This document shows positions 13,817 to 18,733 of a stretch of 64,000 nt of DNA, piece after piece (position 1 is the stretch's first letter; each line of letters opens with the position of its first letter). Under the pieces are notes generated by a model. The model was not told the DNA's origin. It was given only the letters and a program-made list of their open reading frames with translations, and searched no databases. The translations under genes and the position numbers were made by a program. Where the stretch lies: the NCBI RefSeq assembly GCF_031157375.1, contig NZ_JAVIFV010000001.1, forward strand, positions 744,001-808,000. The letters are read 5' to 3'. The stretch is from Sphingosinicella sp. LHD-64 (GTDB lineage: Bacteria > Pseudomonadota > Alphaproteobacteria > Sphingomonadales > Sphingomonadaceae).

Positions 13817-14620
13817 TCATTGCGGATCGCGATAGTAGACGAGCTGGTGGCTGGTCGCGAGGAGGCGGCCGTCGGCGGTCCAGAGTTCGGCGGACTGGTC
13901 GTGGAAGCCGCGATCGAAGATGCGAGCGTCGGCGAGGCCGAGCACAGGCGCCGCGCCGGCCGCAGCCAGATCGTCGTCGGTCGCATGGAAATACGCCGTC
14001 ATGGTGATCGTGCCGAACGGGACCATGCGGCGGCGGACGTGGATGATGCGGCCGAAGAAGATGTCACAGAGCGCCGCGAGGCCGGGGAAGTCGAGTGGGC
14101 GAGGCGGATCGTTCACGATCCAGAGCAGCGAGCGGGCCGGACCGGGCACCTCGGCCGTTTCGGGACCGCCCTCGGCGAAGCGCATGTCGAAGCGCTCGAC
14201 CCATCCGGAAAAGCCGCCGGCGAAGCGCGACAGTGTCTCGAACGGCGGCGCGATGGGCGGGGTCGCGGGGCGGTGGGCGAAGGTTTCCGGGCGGGCGCCG
14301 AACAAAGCGGTGCCGGTGGCGGCGATGGTGCCGTCGGCCTGGACAAGCTCCATCGTCCAGTGCTGGGTGGAGCGGTTGGTCCGCGCCGGACGGGCGGCGA
14401 TGGTGAAGGCGCCCTTCGCCAGCGTGGCGCAGAAGTTGACGGTGAGCGCCACGGGCTGACCCTCGCGCGCCGGATGATCCAGCGCGGCGCGCAGCAGCAA
14501 TGCGGCGATGGTGCCGCCGAACGGGCCGACCATGTTCCAGTAGGCCTCGCTGGTCGCGCCCTGCCAGCGGTCTTCGCCGAGCCATTCGAGCGCGATCGAG
14601 TCATCGAAAGGGTGCGACAT
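13817..14620 (-). CDS. thioesterase family protein (double hotdog, TesB-like)
   Basis: 267 aa. The N-terminal half (WNMVGPFGGTIAALLLRAAL) and the C-terminal half (HDQSAELWTADGRLLATSHQLVYYRD) match the two hotdog folds of TesB-like acyl-CoA thioesterases. The final AELWTADGRLLATSHQL segment is the typical end motif. Such enzymes hydrolyse acyl-CoA to free acid and CoA; the chain length here is unknown. ATG 14620 follows AAGGAGAC. It is divergent from the methionine operon. Confidence 0.85.
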   Translation of the reverse strand: MSHPFDDSIALEWLGEDRWQGATSEAYWNMVGPFGGTIAALLLRAALDHPAREGQPVALTVNFCATLAKGAFTIAARPARTNRSTQHWTMELVQADGTIAATGTALFGARPETFAHRPATPPIAPPFETLSRFAGGFSGWVERFDMRFAEGGPETAEVPGPARSLLWIVNDPPRPLDFPGLAALCDIFFGRIIHVRRRMVPFGTITMTAYFHATDDDLAAAGAAPVLGLADARIFDRGFHDQSAELWTADGRLLATSHQLVYYRDPQ

Positions 14621-14694
14621 GCATGTCTCCTTACGCCATCACGCTAGAGCCTGACCGTCCCGGCGCCAATGCGGTGGCAGGTCATGAACCCACC

Positions 14695-14723
14695 TTGACG
14701 GCCGGAGCCTCTCGCCGTTAAGG
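14695..14723 (+). promoter_or_regulatory. putative promoter of the methionine operon
   Basis: TTGACG at 14695-14700 and TTAAGG at 14718-14723 with a 17-base spacer, about 45 bases before the structured leader. The -10 match is modest. Confidence 0.35.
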
Positions 14724-14768
14724 AGCTGGTCATCGGATTGCTGTATTTCGCGAGGAACGAAGCAATTC

Positions 14769-14853
14769 GTGCATCAAGAGTGGGCCCTTGGCCCACGCCA
14801 ACCTGCCCTCCCGGGCAAGGTGGCGGTCCCGAAGACGGGACGATGCGGCCGGA
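14769..14853 (+). ncRNA. candidate SAM riboswitch (SAM-I/SAM-IV clan-like) before the methionine operon
   Basis: P1 pairs GCATC (14771-14775) with GATGC (14842-14846) and encloses three hairpins. P2 is GTGGGCC/GGCCCAC (14780-14796). P3 is GCCA-A-CCTGCCC / GGGCA-A-GGTGGC (14797-14824). P4 is GTCCCG-AAGA-CGGGAC (14826-14841). The ATCAAGAG after P1 and the ACCTGCCC...GGGCAAGGTG of P3 are the hallmark S-box sequence pieces, though P2 is shorter than in classic SAM-I. The P3 loop (TCCC) could pair with GGA just after P1, as in SAM-IV-type pseudoknots. The downstream genes make homoserine and cystathionine, as expected for SAM control. Confidence 0.6.
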
Positions 14854-14913
14854 CCGGCAAGTATACGGGGTCTTTCGGCTGTGTCGTCCTTCGAGAGTGA
14901 AGAAGGATTGGTC

Positions 14914-16638
14914 ATGCAGCTGTCGGTGGTCCCCAAGGCCGAACCCGCCCTCAAAGCAGAGGTTGTCGCCACGCCAAGCGCCGCGCTCGCGCCGGTCGCG
15001 GTGCTGAAGTTCGGCAGCTCGGTGCTGCGGACGGTCGACGACCTGCCGCGCGTCGCGGGCGAGATCTACCGGCAGCGGCGCGCGGGCTTCCGGCTCGTCG
15101 TCATCGTCTCGGCATTGGCGGGAGAGACCGACGCCCTGTTCGCGCAGGCCGGCAAGGTGGCGGGCGGTGTCGACTGCGCCGGGATCGCCGAGCTGGTGTC
15201 GCTGGGCGAGGAGCGGACCGCCGCCCTGCTGCGCATCGCCTGCGACCGGATCGGGCTTCCAGCGGACATCTGCCGGCCCGAGGGACTGGGGTTGAAGACC
15301 GAAGGCGATCAGCTCAGCGCCCATCCGATCGCGCTGGAGGGCGACGTGCTGCGCGCGAAGCTCGCGGCCACGGGCGTGGTGATCGCGCCGGGCTTCGTCG
15401 GCACCGATGCCGACGGACGGCGGGCGCTGCTCGGCCGGGGCGGATCGGACCTTTCCGCCGTCTTCCTCGCCGGCGCGCTCGGCGCGGACCGCGTGCGGCT
15501 CTACAAGGACGTGAACGGCGTCTACGACCGCGATCCGTCGGTGCTGAAAGACCCCAAACGCTTCGCCGAGATCAGCTGGCACGATGCGGCCAAGGTCGCC
15601 GGCAAGCTGATCCAGCCGCAGGCGATCGACCATGCCGCCCATCACGGCCTCCCGATCGAGGTCGCCGAGATCGGCGGCGCCTCCCCCACCCATGTCGGCG
15701 CCTGTACCGGCGCGGCGGTGCCGGTCGCGGCCCGCCGCCCCTTGCGCATCGCGCTCGCCGGCTACGGCGTGGTCGGCCAGGCGCTCGCCGCCCGGCTCGC
15801 GAACGAGCCCGGCTTCGAGATCGTGTCGATCCTGGTCCGCGACCTCGGCCGCACCCGCGCCGTTTTGCCCCCCTGCGCCCTCACCGACCAGCCCGACGCC
15901 TTCGTCCGGATCGGGGCCGACATCCTCGTCGACGCCCTCTCCTGCGACGCCACCGGGGAAGCCCTGAGCCGCGTCCTGCTTGGCAGCGGCTCCCATGTCG
16001 TCAGCGCCAGCAAGCGCGTCATCGCCCGATCGGGCCGGCCGCTTGCCGCGCTCGCCGAGGTCAATGGCGGATCGCTGCGCTACTCCGCCGCGGTCGGCGG
16101 CGCCGCGCCGGTGCTGGAAACCGTCGCCGAGGCGCGCCGCGCAGGCGAGATCGCCGAGGTGACCGCTATCCTCAACGGCACCGTCAACTTCATCCTCGAC
16201 CGGCTCGCCGCCGGCACCGATTTCGAGACCGCGCTGGACGAGGCGCGCGCCGCGGGCTTCGCCGAGGAAGACAGCAGCTGCGACCTCGAAGGCGCCGACG
16301 CGGCCGCCAAGCTGCGGCTGATCGCGGCCGAGGCGTTCGGGGTCGACCCTGTTTCGGTGGAGGTCGCGACCGAGGCGCTCGACGGCGCGGCGGCCGAACG
16401 CATCCGGGGGACGCGCTGGCTCCAGGTCGCGCGGCTGACCCAAAGCGGCGCCGAGGTGGCGCTGCGGCCGGCCGGCGAAACCGATCTCCCCGCCCTGCCC
16501 GGCGAATGGAACGGCGCCCGCATCACCCTGACCGACGGCTTCGCCTTCGACTGCGTCGGGCGCGGCGCCGGCGGGGCGGCGACCGCCGAGGCGATCGTCG
16601 CCGACCTGTTCGAGATCCACGAGGCGGCGGCATGCTGA
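14914..16638 (+). CDS. bifunctional aspartokinase-homoserine dehydrogenase fusion without ACT domains
   Basis: 574 aa. The N-terminal aspartate kinase domain (about residues 28-270) has the KFGSS phosphate motif (32-36), GRGGSDLSA (174-182) and KDVNGVYDRDP (198-208). The homoserine dehydrogenase follows directly (about 277-574) with the Rossmann motif GYGVVG, then SASKRVIA, ILNGTVNFIL and a GFAEEDSSCDLEGADAA substrate-site region. E. coli ThrA/MetL carry a regulatory ACT-type domain between the two; here there is no room for one, so allosteric feedback is unlikely. AGAAGGA precedes ATG 14914. The end overlaps metX. It should convert aspartate to aspartyl phosphate and the semialdehyde to homoserine for methionine synthesis. 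Confidence 0.85.
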   Translation: MQLSVVPKAEPALKAEVVATPSAALAPVAVLKFGSSVLRTVDDLPRVAGEIYRQRRAGFRLVVIVSALAGETDALFAQAGKVAGGVDCAGIAELVSLGEERTAALLRIACDRIGLPADICRPEGLGLKTEGDQLSAHPIALEGDVLRAKLAATGVVIAPGFVGTDADGRRALLGRGGSDLSAVFLAGALGADRVRLYKDVNGVYDRDPSVLKDPKRFAEISWHDAAKVAGKLIQPQAIDHAAHHGLPIEVAEIGGASPTHVGACTGAAVPVAARRPLRIALAGYGVVGQALAARLANEPGFEIVSILVRDLGRTRAVLPPCALTDQPDAFVRIGADILVDALSCDATGEALSRVLLGSGSHVVSASKRVIARSGRPLAALAEVNGGSLRYSAAVGGAAPVLETVAEARRAGEIAEVTAILNGTVNFILDRLAAGTDFETALDEARAAGFAEEDSSCDLEGADAAAKLRLIAAEAFGVDPVSVEVATEALDGAAAERIRGTRWLQVARLTQSGAEVALRPAGETDLPALPGEWNGARITLTDGFAFDCVGRGAGGAATAEAIVADLFEIHEAAAC

Positions 16639-17579
16639 TGGAAGCGGACCACGACATCGCGACCGATATCGACGTCGCGATCCCTGTTCATCTGCGCCAT
16701 CTCGGCGCAACGACGCTGGCGCGGCTGACCGGCAACCCGGACGGGCCGTTGATCGTCGCGCTCGGTGGCATCTCCGCCAACCGTTTCGTCGCGAGCGGCG
16801 AATATCGCTCGATCGGCTGGTGGCCGGGTCTGGTCGGCGAAGGCCTCGCCGTCGATCCGGCGCGCCACCGCATCCTCGGCCTCGACTTCGCCGCCGACGA
16901 GACCGGCCTCACCGCCCCCACCACCCACGAGCAGGCCGAGGTGCTGGCCGCCGCGGTCGCACAGGCGGGCGGCGGGCCGGCGGTGGTGATCGGCGCCTCC
17001 TATGGCGCGATGGTGGCGCTGGCGCTGGCCGAGGCACGGCCGGAGCTGGTCGCGAAGCTCGTCATCATCTCCGCGCCGGCCGAACCGCATGCCGCAGCGA
17101 CCGCGATCCGCGAGCTGCAGCGCCGCATCGTCGGGCTCGGCATCGAAACCGGGCGCGCACTCGACGCGCTGTCGATCGCCCGTGGCCTCGCCATGACGAC
17201 CTACCGCACCAGCGAGGAGTTCGCCGAGCGCTTCGTCGGCGGCATCCCGGACGAGGACCCGCTCGGCATCTCGGCGCCGGGCGCCTATCTGAAGGCGCGC
17301 GGCGACGTCTATGGCGACGTCATGTCGCCGCAGCGCTTCCTCAGCCTCTCGGCCTCGATCGACCGGCACCGGGTCGATCCGGCCGCGATCCCGCATCCGA
17401 CCCTGGTGCTCGCCGCCTCGACCGACCGGCTGGTGCCGGCCGGGCAGAGCGCGGCGCTCGCCGCGGCGCTGCCCGATGCGCGGCTCCACATCCTCGATTG
17501 CCTGTTCGGCCACGACATGTTCCTCAAGGACGCGGAGAAGGTCGGCGCGCTGGTCGGCCCGTTTCTGGAGGACAAATGA
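16632..17579 (+). CDS. metX: homoserine O-acyltransferase, MetX-like alpha/beta hydrolase fold
   Basis: About 315 aa, shorter than most MetX proteins. The alpha/beta fold has the catalytic triad: Ser in GASYGAMVAL, Asp in STDRLVP, and His in FGHDMFL near the end. The GGISANRFV region matches the MetX oxyanion loop. It should acylate homoserine with acetyl-CoA or succinyl-CoA; the donor cannot be told by eye. It starts inside the end of the upstream fusion gene (ATG 16632, or 16638 via TGATG) and overlaps metB by ATGA, so all three are translationally coupled. Confidence 0.85.
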   Translation: MLMEADHDIATDIDVAIPVHLRHLGATTLARLTGNPDGPLIVALGGISANRFVASGEYRSIGWWPGLVGEGLAVDPARHRILGLDFAADETGLTAPTTHEQAEVLAAAVAQAGGGPAVVIGASYGAMVALALAEARPELVAKLVIISAPAEPHAAATAIRELQRRIVGLGIETGRALDALSIARGLAMTTYRTSEEFAERFVGGIPDEDPLGISAPGAYLKARGDVYGDVMSPQRFLSLSASIDRHRVDPAAIPHPTLVLAASTDRLVPAGQSAALAAALPDARLHILDCLFGHDMFLKDAEKVGALVGPFLEDK

Positions 17580-18733
17580 CGACCCGCAAGCCCGCCACCA
17601 TCCTCGCCGGCGCCCGGCCCGATGCCGACCCCGGCCTTCACGGCGTCGCACCGCCGCTCTGGGCGTCGGACACCTTCCGCTGGGCGACGGCGGAGGAGAA
17701 GCCGGCCTACGACTATGGTCGCACCGTCAATCCCAACCGCGACATGCTCGCCGATGTGCTTGCCGAACTGGAAGGCGCGGCCGGCGGGGCGATCACCGGG
17801 AGCGGGCAATCGGCGGCGCTGCTCGCCTTGCTGCTCGTGCCGGGCGATGCGCATGTCGTGGCGCCGCACGATTGCTATGGTGGCACCTACCGGCTGATCC
17901 GCGGGCTGGAGGAGCAAGGGCGGCTCTCCGCCACCTTCGTCGACATGACCGACATTGACGCTCTTGGCCGTGCGCTGGAGCGGGAGACCGCTTTGGTATG
18001 GATCGAGACGCCGAGCAACCCGCTGCTGCGGGTGACCGACATCGCGCGGGTCGCCGGGCTGGCGACGGCGGCGGGAGCGCTGTCGATCGCCGACAATACC
18101 CTGCCCACTCCGCTGCGCCAGCAACCGCTGGCGCTTGGCTGCGATCTCGTCTTCCATTCGACCACCAAGGCGATCAACGGCCATGGCGACCTGTTCGGCG
18201 GCGCGCTGCTGGCCAAGAGCCCGGCGCTGGTCGAGAAGCTGCAATGGTGGGCCAATGCGGCCGGTCTCTATGCCGGTGCGCGCGACGCCTGGGAAACGCT
18301 GCGCGGGGCGCGGACGCTGTCATTGCGACTCAACCAGGCGGAGGCGAGCGCGCAGCGGATCGCCGGGTGGCTGGAGGCGCGGCCGGAGATCGAGGTCGTC
18401 AACTATCCGGGCCTGGCCGGCCATCCCGATCACGATCTCGCGGCGCGCCAGCAAGCGGGCCCAGGCTTCATGGCGAGCTTCCGGGTGAAGGGCGGCAACG
18501 CGACGGCCTCGCGCTTCCTGACGGGCCTCAGGCTGATCACCCTCGCCTCTTCCTTGGGTGGCCATTCGACGCTGATCTGCAAGCCCGCCAGCATGACCCA
18601 TCGCGGCATGCCGCCCGAGGCGCAGGCCGAGGCGGGGATCACGCCGGACCTGCTGCGCCTGTCGGTGGGGATCGAGGAGGCCGACGACCTGATCGCCGAC
18701 CTCGAACGCGGCTTCGCGGCGATGGGCGGCTGA
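17576..18733 (+). CDS. metB: cystathionine gamma-synthase (Cys/Met metabolism PLP enzyme)
   Basis: 385 aa, matching MetB over its full length. PLP-binding lysine lies in HSTTKAINGHGD, and the landmarks VAPHDCYGGTYRL, ETPSNPLLRVTDIA, SLGGHSTLICKPASMTH and the C-terminal LLRLSVGIEEADDLIADLE are present. It should join O-acylhomoserine with cysteine to give cystathionine; a direct sulfhydrylase role cannot be excluded. The ATG overlaps the metX stop (ATGA). It ends 4 bases before a convergent membrane-protein gene, with no hairpin between. Confidence 0.9.
   Translation: MTTRKPATILAGARPDADPGLHGVAPPLWASDTFRWATAEEKPAYDYGRTVNPNRDMLADVLAELEGAAGGAITGSGQSAALLALLLVPGDAHVVAPHDCYGGTYRLIRGLEEQGRLSATFVDMTDIDALGRALERETALVWIETPSNPLLRVTDIARVAGLATAAGALSIADNTLPTPLRQQPLALGCDLVFHSTTKAINGHGDLFGGALLAKSPALVEKLQWWANAAGLYAGARDAWETLRGARTLSLRLNQAEASAQRIAGWLEARPEIEVVNYPGLAGHPDHDLAARQQAGPGFMASFRVKGGNATASRFLTGLRLITLASSLGGHSTLICKPASMTHRGMPPEAQAEAGITPDLLRLSVGIEEADDLIADLERGFAAMGG

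Follow-up and report, generated by a model that had tools for sequence, protein, structure and literature searches.

The SAM-I/IV riboswitch is a published variant of SAM-I and SAM-IV; Weinberg et al. described it as lacking the internal loop of P2 and listed it for several phyla and marine samples, and in the available part of that report it appears as typically metagenomic (PMC2864571). The structural account of PMC6890682, in its available sections, defines the class by an undivided P2, the presence of P4 and the absence of PK-1; SAM-IV lacks P4, and its PK-1 strand has five bases. In Xanthomonas, the met operon (metA, metB, hom) is under translational control by a SAM-I switch that holds AUG and Shine-Dalgarno (SD) sequence in one hairpin; without SAM the AUG is released while the SD is still sequestered, and uncharged initiator tRNA opens the SD (accessible part of PMC7270179). 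In Hyphomonadaceae, SAM-II (SAM_alpha) controls hom-metXC, and the accessible table of the same study covers seven Sphingomonadales, credited with SahR and with no riboswitch (PMC4239095). The locus analysed here resembles the Hyphomonadaceae case, as far as the accessible text describes it, in that a SAM riboswitch precedes hom-metX-type genes in alphaproteobacteria, but the aptamer is a different one, SAM-I/IV.

All Rfam models were searched against the window, which is the whole 64-kb stretch of DNA analysed here (C1:744001-808000 of the 3.89-Mb genome). RF01725 (SAM-I-IV) was the only family above its curated cut-off anywhere in the window, with a match at 14766-14875 on the forward strand (61.8 bits vs. 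a cut-off of 41.1, model positions 1-99 of 99, E-value 8.8e-8; 2.2e-9 with cmscan on 1.6 kb), and this was its single match in the genome at E ≤ 0.001. A second, weaker match of the same clan overlapped it in the 1.6-kb Rfam scan (14000-15600) and was omitted from the listing without a name. The anatomy of the element is as follows (evidence in brackets).

14766-14875, + strand: SAM-I/IV riboswitch aptamer (RF01725, 61.8 bits over the full model; covariation)
14771-14775, + strand: 5' strand of P1, GCATC, pairing with 14842-14846 (99.5% of cells paired in 37 sequences, 3/5 pairs invariant)
14776-14780, + strand: J1/2, AAGAG, part of the conserved S-box core (G13, A14 and G15 of the element invariant in alignment A2)
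14781-14795, + strand: P2 hairpin, uninterrupted, TGGGCC/GGCCCA, 14781-14786/14790-14795 (6/6 pairs changed on both sides in some sequences)
14797-14824, + strand: P3 hairpin with an AA internal loop, a bulged A and a CAAGG core, 14797-14807/14814-14824 (100% of cells paired, 6/9 pairs invariant)
14809-14813, + strand: 5' strand of the pseudoknot, TCCCG, in the P3 loop (covaries with 14866-14870)
14826-14841, + strand: P4 hairpin, GTCCC/GGGAC, 14826-14830/14837-14841 (5/5 pairs changed on both sides in some sequences)
14842-14846, + strand: 3' strand of P1, GATGC, forming with the P4 3' strand (14837-14841) a candidate anti-sequestor arm
14848-14858, + strand: P5, a small hairpin 3' of P1, GCCG/CGGC, 14848-14851/14855-14858 (93.9% of cells paired)
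14866-14870, + strand: 3' strand of the pseudoknot, CGGGG, in the tail (covaries with the P3 loop)

The first-pass annotation of this DNA had described a P1-closed junction with three hairpins following S-box logic and had placed it in the SAM-I/IV clan. Both claims agree with the Rfam match, which it had proposed as a check: P1 closes P2, P3 and P4, P2 is undivided (six contiguous pairs around a 3-nt loop), P4 is present (14826-14841), and a pseudoknot joins the P3 loop to the 3' tail after P5 (its pairs picked by eye on the alignment). PK-1 of the SAM-IV type was excluded because it takes a five-base strand, for which the 3-nt loop of P2 leaves no room. Two details of that annotation needed correction. 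The ATCAAGAG strand that it had put after P1 is present but lies only partly there, since ATC ends the 5' strand of P1 and AAGAG forms J1/2; the pairing of a TCCC loop with the tail is confirmed, but the partner of TCCCG (14809-14813) is CGGGG (14866-14870) and not the GGA downstream of P1. Since the uninterrupted P2 is unlike SAM-I and the presence of P4 is unlike SAM-IV, this is an ordinary SAM-I/IV aptamer, a typical copy of an already named family; the word variant, used for it before, applies only in the sense that SAM-I/IV is itself a published variant.

The other members considered were SAM-I (RF00162), rejected as P2 has no kink-turn or internal loop, and SAM-IV (RF00634), which would have PK-1 and no P4, whereas P4 is present and covaries here. 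SAM-II (RF00521, SAM_alpha) was absent among the two matches listed up to E 10 in 14000-15600; a SAM-II search of the genome also gave no match, but its controls were silent too and it therefore says nothing about absence. Compared with the family (RF01725, PDB 4L81), P1, the uninterrupted P2, P3, P4, P5 and the pseudoknot between P3 loop and 3' tail fit the class description in the available sections of PMC6890682, and the 4L81 sequence given in the accessible part of PMC5393176 can be read by eye in the same way. The differences lie in the loop lengths and the expression platform of the window, with no departure seen in the aptamer. When 4L81 and the window were aligned with MAFFT, the 3' half came out of register, and the alignment was left unused. 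The positions lying within 5 Å of SAM in SAM-I, taken from the available part of PMC6890682 and mapped by hand on the SAM-I sequence of PMC5393176, are kept in the window (AUC 14773-14775, GA 14778-14779, CAAC 14799-14802, UG 14821-14822 and A 14843); the equivalent of SAM-I C59 is G14823, which is paired in P3.

Compensatory changes in homologues, the second proposed check, were found in the helices and the pseudoknot. Among 37 elements of the genus and the family, standard pairs filled 95.3% of 1207 cells (29 nested and 4 pseudoknot pairs), and 18/33 pairs had changed on both sides, a number reached by 0/500 shuffles. Pairing fell to 30-51% when the partner was slid by 1-3 columns, a control against which the window is favoured because the structure came from its own row. 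A model built from the 37 elements gave 65 matches in 66 loci (alignment A3) and 89 matches in 91 further sources (A4). The A4 sources comprised 80 loci listed of at least 119 from a pattern scan and all 11 viral loci; the pattern that drew the A4 loci fixes parts of P1, J1/2 and P3, and the two sets overlap in genomes (4/4 A4 loci compared were identical to a genus locus). In A4, 25/34 pairs had changed on both sides (0/500 shuffles as high). The pseudoknot, assessed separately with five pairs that are outside the model and were picked by eye on the alignment, paired in 78.1% (A3) and 79.1% (A4) of cells, and its covariation scores of 0.268 and 0.374 exceeded the shuffled means of 0.122 and 0.154 respectively (0/500 as high in either). 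The number of pseudoknot pairs changed on both sides was not exceptional (67/500 and 212/500 shuffles as high in A3 and A4), and further pair types were exceptional in A4 only (43/500 and 0/500 shuffles as high respectively). That the aptamer binds another ligand, such as SAH, or is a relic is very improbable: SAM as the ligand is here deduced from sequence, which leaves some room for this reading, but the core positions are kept, every helix has pairs changed on both sides, and methionine genes are linked to the element in 16/16 genus loci.

The genes following the element are these.

14914-16638, + strand: aspartokinase-homoserine dehydrogenase (AK-HSD) fusion, 574 aa from ATG 14914 (Pfam AA_kinase 28-231, NAD_binding_3 283-390, Homoserine_dh 399-565)
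16632-17579, + strand: MetX-like homoserine O-acyltransferase, its start overlapping the AK-HSD stop (NCBIfam PRK08775, 278.5 bits, below the cut-off of 296)
17576-18733, + strand: MetB-like cystathionine gamma-synthase, its start overlapping the MetX-like stop (TIGR02080, 443.3 bits, below the cut-off of 504.55; Pfam Cys_Met_Meta_PP, E 1.4e-117)

The earlier reading of an aspartokinase-HSD/metX/metB operon thus holds at the family level, the MetX-like and MetB-like proteins being under the NCBIfam cut-offs for the exact names. The AK-HSD open frame starts further upstream, and ATG 14914 was taken as the start because an SD precedes it and the G186 protein aligns from residue 1; the MetX-like gene has a second in-frame ATG at 16638. 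The fusion contains the motifs KFGSS, GRGGSD, GYGVVG and LNGTVNF, and no ACT domain was among its Pfam matches. In E. coli, MetL (aspartokinase II-homoserine dehydrogenase II) is the second AK-HSD isozyme, which is reserved for methionine and regulated through its expression; it is longer, includes a regulatory-domain region, and has the protein MetJ as its repressor. The fusion of the window differs in being free of ACT domains and in its predicted control by RNA. Elsewhere in the genome there is another AK-HSD fusion (G000:C1:1025124-1026782; L032, L255), 40% identical to the riboswitch-linked one over 562 aligned positions and again with no ACT domain in the Pfam search, which adjoins proteins reading by eye as homoserine kinase and threonine synthase, a threonine-type operon. 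As the two fusions lie in differing operons, the genome seems to carry one methionine copy and one threonine copy. It also has a monofunctional aspartokinase with ACT domains and four strong Cys_Met_Meta_PP genes among 10 matches, so that this operon need not be the sole route.

RF01725 was found in 16/26 genomes of the genus, in 22/199 of the family sample and in 35/385 of the class sample (the present genome counted in each). All 16 genus elements precede met genes, the first downstream gene being AK-HSD in five loci, an HSD without AK in three and MetX in eight; one of these loci is a 100% match over 2655 aligned bases to a contig of Sphingomonas deserti (now Allosphingosinicella deserti). 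In a tree of 22 HSD domains, a long branch parts nine methionine copies from 13 threonine copies. The window, G186 and the AK-less G200 grouped together (support 96), so the AK domain was probably lost in the G200 lineage, as judged from this tree; the deep nodes among the methionine HSDs have support of 41-72 and do not settle the order of AK gain and loss. A protein query of the genome contigs found no relative.

Several other arrangements were observed outside the met loci. The largest group of SAM-I/IV loci has a threonine-aldolase-like gene downstream (27/151 automatically picked first ORFs, same-genome duplicates included; L017, L019-L023, L108, L116, L169 and others); the one locus tested, L017, matched Pfam Beta_elim_lyase, and none of the papers listed in a literature search was, by its title, on a threonine aldolase under a SAM riboswitch. 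On a 37.7-kb IMG/VR contig (L220:541-2072), SAM-I/IV is followed by a GC-rich hairpin and T run resembling by eye an intrinsic terminator, and then by a SAM synthetase gene, which looks like a mobile-element SAM-I/IV of the transcriptional type. In L071, L073, L218 and other class and viral loci, the element stands before small unknown ORFs, with a CCTCC...GGAGG hairpin, a short T run and an ATG (by eye); that hairpin could be SD block and terminator in one. Genome G504 has four SAM-I/IV copies, and L109 has tandem elements (1469-1571 and 1658-1763) before a gene reading by eye as an ATPase. L015 and its longer copy L047 (G126) carry the element before a 90-aa ORF, with a gene that by eye is tyrosine-integrase-like on the opposite strand just downstream. 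Pfam gave no match for a guessed 38-aa stretch of L100.

The leader between promoter and first gene contains the following further features.

14695-14723, + strand: probable promoter, with a -35 box TTGACG (14695-14700), a 17-nt spacer and a -10-like box TTAAGG (14718-14723), assigned by eye
14881-14892, + strand: switching strand GTGTCGTCCTTC, complementary to 14837-14846 and to the initiation region (duplex energies compared with shuffles)
14902-14907, + strand: SD region GAAGGA, complementary to TCCTTC at 14887-14892

The probable promoter is missing from the list of a consensus scanner; by eye, most of the 16 genus loci are preceded by a TTGAC/TTGCC-like box with an A/T-rich box approximately 17 nt later. 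In the window, the switching strand can form one duplex with the arm 14837-14846 (-15.4 kcal/mol, shuffle p 0.012) and another with the initiation region (-11.4 kcal/mol, shuffle p 0.022). Across the genus, the stretch from pseudoknot to start beat its own dinucleotide shuffles against the P4/P1 3' strands in 12/16 loci (p < 0.05; L057, L062, L064 and L066 did not go beyond shuffles) and against the SD/AUG region singly in 6/16 (p < 0.05). Summed over the 16 loci, the SD/AUG complementarity was -172.1 kcal/mol, whereas 500 shuffles averaged -125.9 and went no lower than -149.3; as the loci are related, their p-values are not independent. In none of the 16 loci are the two pairings separate, as 4 to 12 nucleotides of the stretch take part in both. 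Two types of platform were distinguished by eye: in most genus loci a CGTCCTTCG-like strand faces GAAGGA, and in L061, L062, L064 and L066 CATCTCCC faces GGAAGATG and covers the AUG itself. That the double complementarity is kept in both types is the strongest argument for gating of translation, and makes this level of control the most likely one.

The same aptamer could instead gate transcription, through Rho-dependent termination in the leader or because the message, left untranslated, decays. RNA whose translation is blocked is often accessible to Rho, and the leader would measure approximately 180 nt if the promoter is right. We consider this unlikely, given that the switching strand is complementary to SD and AUG beyond 500 shuffles when the 16 genus loci are taken together and that no terminator-like site was found in 14500-15000, the latter being a weak test for intrinsic terminators (shuffles average 0.4). 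Of the two platforms suggested by the first-pass annotation, gating of the ribosome binding site is therefore retained as an inference from SD/AUG complementarity and constrained folds, and the terminator is dropped, none being found in that interval.

Two broader versions of the anti-sequestor were rejected. A genus-wide covarying anti-sequestor did not hold, as the complementarity is conserved without covariation: 0/9 pairs of the helix between arm and strand had changed on both sides in the genus, where the arm hardly varies. A general anti-sequestor in all SAM-I/IV loci was examined by a swap test on 154 elements of all gene classes, of which 19 were dropped (lacking the P1 3' motif or the tail motif looked for, or not long enough) and identical ones merged, giving 129 loci. 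The result was not significant (own mean -13.46 vs. permuted mean -13.18, 362/5000 permutations as good). Swapping the closing base of P1 weakened the pairing in 33/50 C-type loci (15 better, 2 the same) and strengthened it in 46/75 U-type loci (25 worse, 4 the same), and these opposite outcomes give the general anti-sequestor no support.

The final folds were computed with P5 and pseudoknot constraints and with P1 formed or blocked; they replaced a first, less constrained run with P1 alone forced, in which the window fold broke P5 and the SD was paired in both states (1.00 and 0.97). In the window, AUG pairing dropped from 0.71 to 0.09 when P1 was blocked, and SD pairing went from 0.77 to 0.80. 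The means over the 16 genus loci were 0.53 with P1 and 0.52 without it for the SD, and 0.70 and 0.48 respectively for the AUG; locus by locus, SD pairing dropped in 10/16 and AUG pairing in 13/16, several by almost nothing. The fold of the window, with a freed AUG and a paired SD, recalls the Xanthomonas SAM-I switch and would suit a special case of translational gating in which SAM controls the AUG and the anti-SD hairpin persists until a second factor opens it. The Xanthomonas operon (metA, metB, hom), as described in the accessible part of PMC7270179, is close in content to that of the window, with a homoserine acyltransferase, metB and hom, and in both AUG and SD fall within one hairpin, by prediction in the window; the SAM-free fold of the Xanthomonas RNA keeps the SD hairpin, as does the predicted fold here. 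However, the aptamer there is SAM-I and not SAM-I/IV, the HSD of the window is fused to aspartokinase and stands first, and tRNA sensing is reported for Xanthomonas. Moreover, the folds ignore pseudoknot energy, Mg and cotranscriptional order, and G186, which has the first protein closest to that of the window, shows the opposite pattern (SD 0.76 to 0.29, AUG 0.13 to 0.46 when P1 is blocked). Because of this opposite behaviour, the two-step gate is kept as a minor and rather unlikely reading.

Very probably, then, the SAM-I/IV riboswitch represses, most likely at the level of translation, an operon that would lead from aspartate through homoserine to homocysteine. Binding of SAM would hold P1, P4, P5 and the pseudoknot together and leave strand 14881-14892 free to pair with SD and AUG; translation of the first gene would stop, and so, by translational coupling, would that of the overlapping second and third genes. 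Without SAM, the 3' strands of P4 and P1 (14837-14846) would capture part of strand 14881-14892 and at least the AUG would be freed. The TCCTTC/GAAGGA pairing would be the repressing one, and the GGGACGATGC/GTGTCGTCC pairing would be needed to switch the operon on.

The aptamer is of a known kind, and SAM control of an ACT-free AK-HSD is mildly novel; no description of this operon under a SAM-I/IV switch was met among the open-access papers listed, which is weak support as most subscription journals lie outside that coverage. A more far-reaching idea, which we regard as a long shot, is that this genus has shifted methionine feedback on the first committed steps away from the protein and onto RNA. 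An ACT-free methionine AK-HSD would then be governed only by the SAM-I/IV riboswitch, through a two-step platform, with SAM acting on the AUG and another signal opening the SD; the tRNA-sensing SAM-I switch of Xanthomonas would be a convergent case. The element of the window is a clear chromosomal case of SAM-I/IV in Sphingomonadales, and its targets and platform are testable in the relative Allosphingosinicella deserti. An AK-HSD free of feedback domains, with another one like it in a threonine-type operon, offers a way to ask whether the aspartate pathway is regulated through RNA in place of allostery.
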